A DNA stretch of 8,600 bases from Thermoproteota archaeon (lineage in GTDB: Archaea > Korarchaeota > Korarchaeia > B14-G2). Each line of letters begins with the position of its first letter. Positions within the stretch are counted from its first letter, which is position 1. Under the pieces are notes generated by a model, which searched no databases, was not told the origin of the DNA, and saw only the letters and a list, made by a program, of their open reading frames with translations. Of the stretch, positions 6,079-7,650 are shown piece after piece. The stretch spans positions 1 to 8,600 of the forward strand of contig QMWA01000064.1 in the NCBI GenBank assembly GCA_003661385.1, in the 5' to 3' direction. A program made the translations under genes and the position numbers.

Positions 6079-6086
6079 TTATAAGT
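6079..6086 (+). promoter_or_regulatory. Upstream TATA-like box of the vapBC region
   Basis: CTTATAAG is a palindromic TATA-like octamer about 84 bases before the vapB ATG. If used on the plus strand it would start transcription near 6109 and give a leader of about 60 bases containing the inverted repeat at 6108-6125. It may be a second vapBC promoter or may belong to an unseen small RNA. It is symmetric, so orientation is not certain. Confidence 0.4.
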
Positions 6087-6107
6087 TGAGGGGGAGCACG
6101 GTACTGG

Positions 6108-6125
6108 CTGGGACTCCAAGTCCAG
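6108..6125. repeat. Small inverted repeat next to the vapB promoter
   Basis: GGACT-CCA-AGTCC (6111-6123) is a perfect 5-bp inverted repeat with a 3-base spacer. It extends outward to CTG...CAG if one G is bulged out. It ends only five bases before the TATA box at 6131-6138. VapB-type antitoxins commonly bind short inverted repeats near their own promoter, so this is a candidate autoregulatory operator. A short RNA hairpin made from the upstream promoter is the alternative. Confidence 0.4.
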
Positions 6126-6130
6126 ACCCC

Positions 6131-6138
6131 TTATATAG
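6131..6138 (+). promoter_or_regulatory. TATA box of vapBC
   Basis: TTATATAG, preceded by CCCC, is the best TATA-like element in this gap. Its centre is about 32 bases before the vapB ATG at 6167, so transcription should start near 6160 and give an almost leaderless message. Confidence 0.65.
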
Positions 6139-6166
6139 GATGTGGAAGAGGTGTCCGGGTGATACG

Positions 6167-6379
6167 ATGCCTGTCGTCTCATTCAGGGTGCCTAAGGAAG
6201 TCAAGGAAGAGATGCAGAAGATAAAGATAAACTGGCCGGAGTACCTGAGAGAAGCTGTCAGGCGTAAGATAAGGGAGGAGAAGGTCAAGCAGGCTGCGAT
6301 GGTGATGGACGAGTCTAGAGCTAAGACAGAGGGCGTTGAGTTCAGGAGTGAGGAAGCAGCCAGAGAGGTGCGTGAGTAG
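6167..6379 (+). CDS. vapB: VapB-type antitoxin, ribbon-helix-helix DNA-binding
   Basis: 70 residues starting MPVVSFRVPKEVKEEMQ, then NWPEYLREAVRRKI. This is a short beta strand followed by two helices, the ribbon-helix-helix pattern of archaeal VapB antitoxins. The C-terminal half (residues 36-70) is highly charged and probably disordered until it wraps the toxin. Known: such antitoxins neutralise the VapC ribonuclease and repress their own operon as dimers. The ATG at 6167 is preferred over the upstream in-frame ATGs at 6086 and 6140: it has GGTGA just upstream, lies about 32 bases after a good TATA box, and puts the beta strand at the N-terminus as in the family. The vapC gene follows one base after the stop. 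Confidence 0.83.
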   Translation: MPVVSFRVPKEVKEEMQKIKINWPEYLREAVRRKIREEKVKQAAMVMDESRAKTEGVEFRSEEAAREVRE

Positions 6380-6380
6380 C

Positions 6381-6806
6381 TTGAGGCGGATAGTAGTAGA
6401 CGCGAGCGTAGTCTCAAAGTGGGTGATCCAGGAGCCGCTGACGGACAAGGCCCTGAAGATAAGGGAGAAGAGCGCTAGCGAGGAGCTTGAGCTCATAGCG
6501 CCCTCAGTGATGCTCTATGACTTCTGCCACATCTTGAGCAGGCACCCAGCAAAGACCCCAGAGGACATTGAACGCGACTTGAATGCCGTCCTCCAGTTCA
6601 ACATAAGGCTGGAGGACGTTAGGGACCCAGAGTTCCTTAGGAAGGCTGTTGAGGTTGCGAAGAGCACTAAGCTGACCTTCATAGAGGCATCCTACGTCGC
6701 TCTCTCAGAGAGGTATGGGTGCCCTCTCGTTACAGCTGACAGCAAGCTAGCTGAGAGGCTTAAGGACAAGATTGAGGTCATAGAGCTCAAAGACTGGAAG
6801 GACTAG
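6381..6806 (+). CDS. vapC: VapC-type toxin, PIN-domain ribonuclease
   Basis: 141 residues from TTG 6381. Seen: RRIVVDASVVSKWV at the N-terminus with the first acidic residue D7; APSVMLYDFCHIL (40-52) with D47; LTFIEASYVALSERYGCPLV (98-117) with E102; and TADSKLAERL, with D120. These are the four acidic positions of a PIN active site that bind the metal ions for RNA cleavage. Known: VapC toxins are endoribonucleases, often cutting tRNA or rRNA; the target here is unknown. The middle two positions show Asp and Glu where the family more often has Glu and Asp, so charge is kept with the side-chain lengths exchanged. The start is TTG one base after the vapB stop, with GAGGTG about ten bases upstream; GTG at 6372, overlapping vapB, is an alternative. 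The gene converges on the radical SAM gene with a 5-base gap. Confidence 0.87.
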   Translation: MRRIVVDASVVSKWVIQEPLTDKALKIREKSASEELELIAPSVMLYDFCHILSRHPAKTPEDIERDLNAVLQFNIRLEDVRDPEFLRKAVEVAKSTKLTFIEASYVALSERYGCPLVTADSKLAERLKDKIEVIELKDWKD

Positions 6807-6811
6807 CCCTC

Positions 6812-7650
6812 TCACCCCACTATTTTTGAGATCGGAGGGTAGACCTGCTTCAGAGGCCACTCGATCTTGAAGCCAGCTAGCTTCAGCCTAGCTAGGGCTG
6901 TGTCATAGGGGTCGCAGACCTCCTCCTCAAGCACCTTAGGCAGCTCAGGGGATATCCCAGCTAGCCTCCTGTACAGCTCGAGCCTCTCCTCTGGGGACAT
7001 GAGCCTTGGGTCTGCGCTCATAGCTGCGACATGAAACGACGCTCCAGCCTCCATCAGGTTCCTTATAGCCTTGAATGGGAGCTCGAATGCCTCTGGTATG
7101 GCCCCTGTCTTCCTGGTGAAGTCCTCTGGTGTCCCAGCCTTCAGGGACACCCTGACGTGGACCTTGCTGAAGGCAGCTACCTCCTCTGCTAGGCTCCTAT
7201 CTGCCCCCATTAGTATCCCGTTTGTCTCGAGGATGAACAGCCTTATCGCGCTCGACTTCTCCACGTGCCTGAGGAGCTTGAGGAGGTGCTCTGGGCACAG
7301 GGTCGGCTCGCATCCTGATACCCTGGCTTTCCTCACCCCGTACTTCCTTGCTGCAGCCTCTATCCTGCGAGCCGCCCTCTCTGGGCTGTGGAAGCTCCCG
7401 TACTTCTCTGGGAAGTCCCTGCTCCAGCTCACCCAGCAGAAGACGCACCGCAGGCAGCAGCCTACAGCATAGCCTGTAGCTATGCCACCGTGAGCGCGCC
7501 ACGTGGCTATACGCCGGTGGCATAGAAAGCCTCGTACTTCCTCTCTACCCCTGCAGGCGTCCTTCTACATGCTATCTCTCTTGTGAGCTCAGCTAGCTCC
7601 AGTGGGTTGAATGGCTTGAACCCTGGGGTCAGGTACCGGGGGTACTCCAT
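6812..7650 (-). CDS. Radical SAM protein, interrupted by a 17-nt BHB intron (join 7650-7509, 7491-6812)
   Basis: Read without splicing, the frame from ATG 7650 (MEYPRYLTPGFKPFNPLELA...) stops at TAG 7509-7507 after 47 residues, while the catalytic part is open in another frame with no ATG, GTG or TTG before its cysteine motif. Removing 7508-7492 joins them into 273 residues. Seen in the joined protein: RKYEAFYATGVYGGIATGYA (37-56), then C59-x3-C63-x2-C66 in CCLRCVFCW, the ligands of the radical SAM [4Fe-4S] cluster, then RVSGCEPT, equivalent to the GGEP motif that contacts S-adenosylmethionine, and LETNGIL further on. Known: these enzymes cleave SAM to a 5'-deoxyadenosyl radical. It resembles the MoaA/PflA-like archaeal radical SAM proteins, where a YGGIAT...GC segment precedes the cluster; the substrate is not recognisable. 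It is divergent from the formiminotransferase gene and convergent with vapC. A true frameshifted pseudogene is the alternative, but every conserved motif is intact. Confidence 0.82.
6823..6827 (+). terminator. Possible T-run terminator after vapC
   Basis: TTTTT begins 17 bases after the vapC stop, inside the end of the convergent radical SAM gene. Archaeal polymerase can terminate at short U-runs without a hairpin, and no better run exists nearby. Five T's is short, so this is tentative. Confidence 0.3.
7480..7525 (-). other. Bulge-helix-bulge RNA fold around the intron
   Basis: Five elements in order. (1) Exon helix, 11 perfect pairs: CTATGCCACCG (7525-7515) with CGGTGGCATAG (7490-7480). 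(2) A 3-nt bulge UCA (7493-7491) on the 3' strand. (3) Central helix of four pairs: GCGU (7514-7511) with GCGC (7497-7494), one being U-G. (4) A 3-nt bulge AUA (7510-7508) on the 5' strand. (5) Intron helix of three pairs, GCC (7507-7505) with GGC (7500-7498), closed by an ACGU loop. This is the hBHBh' order of archaeal tRNA introns, with exon bases pairing to intron bases in the central helix. Confidence 0.85.
7492..7508 (-). other. 17-nt archaeal BHB intron in the radical SAM gene
   Basis: The intron is AGCCACGTGGCGCGCTC on the minus strand. The 5' cut falls between 7509 and 7508 (AU^A) and the 3' cut between 7492 and 7491 (UC^A). Each cut follows the second base of a 3-nt bulge, the standard position for archaeal tRNA-splicing endonuclease. 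It is a phase-1 intron in codon 48: T^AG, an amber stop before splicing, becomes T^AC, tyrosine. Its length (17, not a multiple of three) is exactly what is needed to join the two frames. Inside the intron GCC-ACGT-GGC forms the terminal hairpin. Splicing itself is inferred; the structure and the frame correction are seen. Confidence 0.82.

Follow-up and report, generated by a model that had tools for sequence, protein, structure and literature searches.

A putative 17-nt bulge-helix-bulge intron in an archaeal radical SAM protein gene and its recurrence in a second phylum

An interrupted gene for a radical SAM protein

The window, the whole stretch of 8,600 nucleotides that was analysed, is contig C64 of the 1.74 Mb genome of an uncultured archaeon (G000; 206 contigs, 91 % complete). 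The class to which this genome belongs forms part of a small phylum and includes the single-contig 1.6-Mb genome G002. A gene for an iron-sulphur radical SAM protein, with its start codon at 7650, is encoded on the minus strand of the window and is interrupted by 17 nt (7508..7492, AGCCACGTGGCGCGCTC). The following features can be distinguished, with the basis of each in brackets:

7509..7650, minus strand: exon 1 of the radical SAM gene, with 47 complete codons and the T that opens a split Tyr codon (spliced translation; homologue start)
7492..7508, minus strand: putative 17-nt bulge-helix-bulge (BHB) intron (fold, frame joining, same site broken in genome G050)
6812..7491, minus strand: exon 2, the rest of the radical SAM protein to the stop codon (C59xxxC63xxC66 and Radical_SAM domain)
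7515..7525, minus strand: 5' strand of the outer helix, CUAUGCCACCG, in exon 1 (fold)
7480..7490, minus strand: 3' strand of the outer helix, CGGUGGCAUAG, in exon 2 (fold)
7511..7514, minus strand: 5' strand of the central 4-bp helix, GCGU, in exon 1 (fold; identical in G050)
7494..7497, minus strand: 3' strand of the central 4-bp helix, GCGC, in the intron (fold; identical in G050)
7508..7510, minus strand: 5' bulge AU^A (predicted cleavage at the 7509/7508 bond)
7491..7493, minus strand: 3' bulge UC^A (predicted cleavage at the 7492/7491 bond)
7498..7507, minus strand: intron hairpin GCC-ACGU-GGC, 3 bp (fold)

The frame that opens at 7650 reads MEYPRYLTPGFKPFNPLELAELTREIACRRTPAGVERKYEAFYATGV and terminates at a TAG created at the predicted splice bond, an in-frame stop met immediately if the intron is left unspliced, while another minus-strand frame carries GGIATGYAVGCCLRCVFCW and the remainder of the radical SAM protein. 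Removal of the 17 nt fuses the exon 1 frame with that of the CxxxCxxC motif into a protein of 273 amino acids, in which T and AC form the Tyr codon and the joint reads FYATGV-YGGIATGY...CCLRCVFC. The initial annotation had joined the frames through GTA-T and AC-GGT, and the spliced translation does run on into the cluster-motif frame. The extent of exon 1 rests on the spliced minus-strand translation (MEYPRYLTPGF...FYATGV, followed by the split Y) and on homologues that start at about the same residue. Membership of the radical SAM superfamily is supported by the cysteines C59, C63 and C66 and by a PF04055 match of 62.9 bits against a cut-off of 29.5 (E 3e-17 for the exon 2 frame; 5e-17 for the spliced protein).

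The BHB is both the MFE and the centroid structure of an 81-nt minus-strand segment (z = -3.3; 0/200 shuffles as good) and fulfils the definition of the motif, with two 3-nt bulges on opposite strands, a 4-bp helix between them and flanking helices. The succession of 11-bp helix, 3-nt bulge, 4-bp helix, opposite 3-nt bulge and hairpin recognised in the initial annotation is exact to the base, and the predicted cuts after the second base of each bulge would, as it had claimed, excise precisely these 17 bases and join 7509 to 7491. Downstream of the radical SAM gene, at 6086-6806 on the plus strand, a small antitoxin-like ORF is followed by a PIN-domain-like ORF; both this and the assignment of the pair to the toxin-antitoxin type were made by eye only.

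Uninterrupted homologues and the rarity of the motif

The homologue in Baldrarchaeum (G139) is 67 % identical over residues 2-272 and continuous at the joint. Further homologues without a gap at this position occur in G143 (65 %), in two more genomes of the G143 phylum (63 %), in Bathyarchaeota (62-66 %), in Planctomycetota (60-64 %) and in many others. Close homologues (63-67 % identical) are uninterrupted at the site, which had been put forward as a check, and they read FYATGVYGGIATGY, FYATGVYRGIATGY or similar across the joint. A stop flagged in the G143 homologue proved to be the natural end of an uninterrupted gene. In approximately sixty uninterrupted homologues the positions equivalent to the outer helix form at most 10/11 pairs and mostly 4-9, with none reaching 11/11.

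With the peptide fixed and the codon usage of G000 applied, the probability of 11/11 exon pairing is 0.0038, and the radical SAM BHB is the only one with eleven Watson-Crick outer-helix pairs in 1.03 Mb of the genome. It heads the ranking when 657 kb is scanned for structure and frame combined, and comes second, behind an intron in cbf5, when 1.03 Mb is scored on constrained-fold energy and frame. The top four matches of the structure-plus-frame scan over 1.03 Mb comprise three introns and, at rank 3, an apparent gene boundary; most of the remaining matches were judged by eye to be junctions of neighbouring genes. The motif in the radical SAM gene is beyond chance. As the scan covers 1.03 of 1.74 Mb (59 %) and is tuned to canonical cores, it represents a partial census.

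The same bond is broken in a genome of another phylum

Genome G050, the sole member of its phylum in the data set and of a different phylum from the window genome, encodes a radical SAM homologue broken at the same codon, where frame 1 ends in ...NFYATGVY and frame 3 resumes with GGIATGYAIGCMLRC. Its insert, located at the same bond, is 38 nt long and unrelated in interior sequence to the 17-nt intron, and the predicted fold is CUAUGCCACUG-GCGU-(AUA)-...-GCGC-(GAA)-CGGUGGUAUAG. The central helix (GCGU/GCGC) is that of the window, the spliced joint is likewise T followed by AC, and the outer helix retains 11/11 pairs, synonymous changes having turned two into G-U and broken none. When 204 kb of G050 was scanned, this intron likewise came out first. 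A conserved position and boundary pairing with a variable interior are therefore found, for the window and G050 only. Pairing in related genomes had been named beforehand as a check, and this distant genome supplies it, with the same two-frame break, a retained BHB and a different interior; no relative with the break and without the motif, which would have spoken against an intron, was found. Judged from sequence, this recurrence is the decisive evidence for the intron. The window and G050 genes were not resolved as sisters in a gene tree, so that the two introns may reflect common descent, the transfer of a gene already carrying one, or separate gains. On contig C51 of G050 (L159), endA lies approximately 4.5 kb from the intron-bearing gene.

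These comparisons bear on the possibility that the gene is a pseudogene, broken by a small insertion beside an incidental hairpin. The frame is indeed broken, and an in-class relative, G020, carries a degenerate copy of the gene without the cluster motif. However, coding statistics are kept in both exons and the gene is homologous throughout, without any further lesion. Moreover, two distant genomes share the broken bond and the BHB with inserts of different length, and 11/11 exon pairing is confined to the interrupted genes, which leaves a pseudogene very unlikely. The G020 copy (contig C65, L041, about 2060-2130), in which the CxxxCxxC segment is missing and the frames are scrambled, was considered as a third intron case and ruled out as a deletion-bearing remnant.

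Putative introns in cbf5 and pcm of the same class

Two further genes of G000, cbf5 and pcm (protein-L-isoaspartate methyltransferase), are interrupted in a comparable manner:

L197:6638-6659, contig C4, plus strand: 22-nt BHB intron in cbf5 (BHB and frame)
L195, cut after 5024, contig C2, minus strand: 20-nt BHB intron in pcm (BHB and frame)

The cbf5 gene is broken between GHCGTL and DPPASG, the classic crenarchaeal position, with 22 nt between CCCU(AG^C) and GGGG(AU^A), and removal joins G to AT as the codon of the catalytic Asp. The pcm gene is broken between GQTISAP and HMV, with 20 nt between CGCC(AC^A) and GGCG(AG^A); removal joins C to AC and gives a protein whose whole length matches PCMT (E 3e-64). 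Pfam matches span the joint in both spliced proteins. The pcm intron is found at the same codon in six more genomes of the class (G006, G007, G009, G020, G021 and G025), with a constant CGCC/GGCG core and an inner hairpin that varies by paired substitutions (for example, CGGCU..AGCCG, CGGAUCC..GGAUCCG and CGGAUUCC..GGAAUCCG). The cbf5 intron occurs in nine more genomes, five in the class (G006, G007, G009, G020 and G021), three elsewhere in the phylum (G026, G027 and G028) and one of another phylum (G053). The central helix is fully paired (4/4) in 17/17 cbf5 and pcm introns, in the class and beyond, and the 3+3 bulges lie at the reading joint. Where full-length matches were recovered in genus g2 of the class, both introns are absent. 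The radical SAM, cbf5 and pcm genes are all split in phase 1, after the first base of an NAY codon (Tyr, Asp and His, respectively) and within highly conserved segments, and the 3' bulge ends in A in 19/19 introns seen.

It is probable that splicing of pre-mRNA by the tRNA endonuclease is a regular trait of this class and affects several genes, at least three in G000 (cbf5, pcm and radical SAM), two of them across family-level distances, with the radical SAM intron present in another phylum too. The initial annotation had described such introns as known mainly from crenarchaeal cbf5 with few other reports. This stands for the literature searched (cbf5 and one Haloferax 5'-UTR intron), but not for the organism's own class, which has more (cbf5 and pcm). 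Translational recoding, in which the ribosome would hop or shift past the insert without RNA splicing, finds some support in the strong hairpin at the frame break. It is nevertheless scarcely credible, given that the inserts of 17 and 38 nt have unrelated interiors, that the bases skipped would coincide in both with the two EndA cuts, and that the logic of splicing extends to pcm and to cbf5, splicing of which is established in Crenarchaeota (PMC2738675).

Splicing machinery

The tRNA splicing endonuclease (EndA) of G000 is a single 370-amino acid protein with two tRNA_int_endo domains (L100:1480-2589, minus strand, contig C7), an arrangement also observed in six relatives tested from the class and phylum; no EndA match was found in G021, which is 66 % complete. 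Its C-terminal half retains the motifs YG.DF, DHGPY and SVRK, of which the Tyr, His and Lys are the catalytic residues. The same half matches the crenarchaeal catalytic subunit 3p1z. In G050, EndA is a single-domain protein of 185 amino acids, the only endA gene recovered by profile search being of the one-domain kind, and would class as the homotetrameric type. The lengths of several tRNA genes in G000 and G050, which exceed that of an uninterrupted tRNA, indicate that these putatively hold introns too.

RtcB is the usual archaeal tRNA ligase. An rtcB gene is present in G000 (L102 and L103, contig C181), with a 1-nt frameshift after ...FAELD in the assembly; sequencing error, true lesion and recoding cannot be told apart from these data. 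A further intron was ruled out here, since the alignment requires one added base rather than removal of a stretch. Because of the state of rtcB in the assembly, the ligase step is the weakest link in the proposed pathway. The frameshift also shows that small errors are possible in this fragmented, metagenome-type assembly of 206 contigs, but next to no weight can be given to the 17 bases having been added by assembly or sequencing error, as the inserted sequence does not duplicate the flanking bases, folds into a canonical BHB and has a counterpart at that bond in the unrelated assembly of G050; a 17-nt error that produced a perfect BHB found again in a second genome is implausible.

Proposed splicing of the radical SAM mRNA

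It is proposed that, in the nascent mRNA, coding sequence of both exons would pair as the 11-bp helix and present a canonical 3-4-3 BHB to EndA, which would cut after base 2 of each bulge and free the 17 nt; an RNA ligase, putatively RtcB, would then seal 7509 to 7491, completing the Tyr codon and the 273-amino acid frame. That the 17 nt constitute a BHB intron cut by EndA and sealed by RtcB is considered highly probable (approximately 95 %), with cleavage and ligation in the cell and the enzymes responsible inferred in the absence of RNA data. The anatomy, the frame, the homology, the recurrence in a second genome and an EndA with the catalytic motif are observed. Unspliced mRNA would stop at codon 48, after 47 residues and before the iron-sulphur motif, from which it is inferred that splicing is needed for an active enzyme. 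A regulatory role for the intron is speculation.

The literature searched, which was mainly non-subscription, yielded no account of introns in radical SAM or pcm genes, and an earlier description is not excluded; a plasmid search gave no match. The radical SAM intron is of a known kind, the BHB pre-mRNA intron, in genes for which that literature holds no report. Archaeal coding-sequence introns have been documented essentially for one gene, and the radical SAM (two phyla) and pcm cases add to these and make archaeal pre-mRNA splicing open to comparative study. BHB splicing of archaeal mRNA appears to be commoner than the literature states. If splicing is a regular feature of this class, the mRNA introns of archaea would extend beyond cbf5, and genes carrying them may move between phyla. 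Before a broken gene in an archaeal metagenome assembly is called a pseudogene, it should be examined for a BHB.

Comparison with known systems

The documented coding-sequence case is the cbf5 pre-mRNA intron of the Desulfurococcales and Sulfolobales (Watanabe 2002; Yokobori 2009, PMC2738675); Korarchaeum is listed there (PMC2738675) without a cbf5 intron, and the same paper mentions introns predicted in other genes but unconfirmed. Like the cbf5 introns, the radical SAM intron is short, of BHB type and located in coding sequence in phase 1, with predicted cuts between bulge bases 2 and 3, conserved boundaries and a variable interior. The cbf5 introns are removed by EndA, the enzyme also proposed here. 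In contrast, the radical SAM intron occurs in a different gene and in other lineages, and its BHB is a strict 3-4-3 with an 11-bp outer helix, whereas most cbf5 BHBs are unconventional. Furthermore, the EndA of G050 has one domain, unlike the heteromeric enzyme with which cbf5 introns have been associated. This combination of a one-domain EndA and a strict 3-4-3 BHB bears on the idea that mRNA introns need a heteromeric endonuclease of relaxed specificity.

HVO_1309 of Haloferax volcanii carries a 46-nt BHB intron in its 5' UTR, an EndA substrate cleaved in vitro (PMC7714728). It shares with the radical SAM case an mRNA with a BHB motif, but differs in its length of 46 nt and its location in an untranslated leader, where it restores no reading frame. 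Rudivirus genes have been described with putative 12-bp introns, whose splicing was not demonstrated (Peng 2004, as cited in PMC2738675). They are likewise very short, putative and situated in archaeal coding sequence, but 12 bp preserves the frame, whereas 17 nt breaks it and must be removed. Archaeal pre-tRNA introns share the BHB motif and presumably the same enzymes; they differ in that the radical SAM exons are protein-coding and the outer helix is built of codons.
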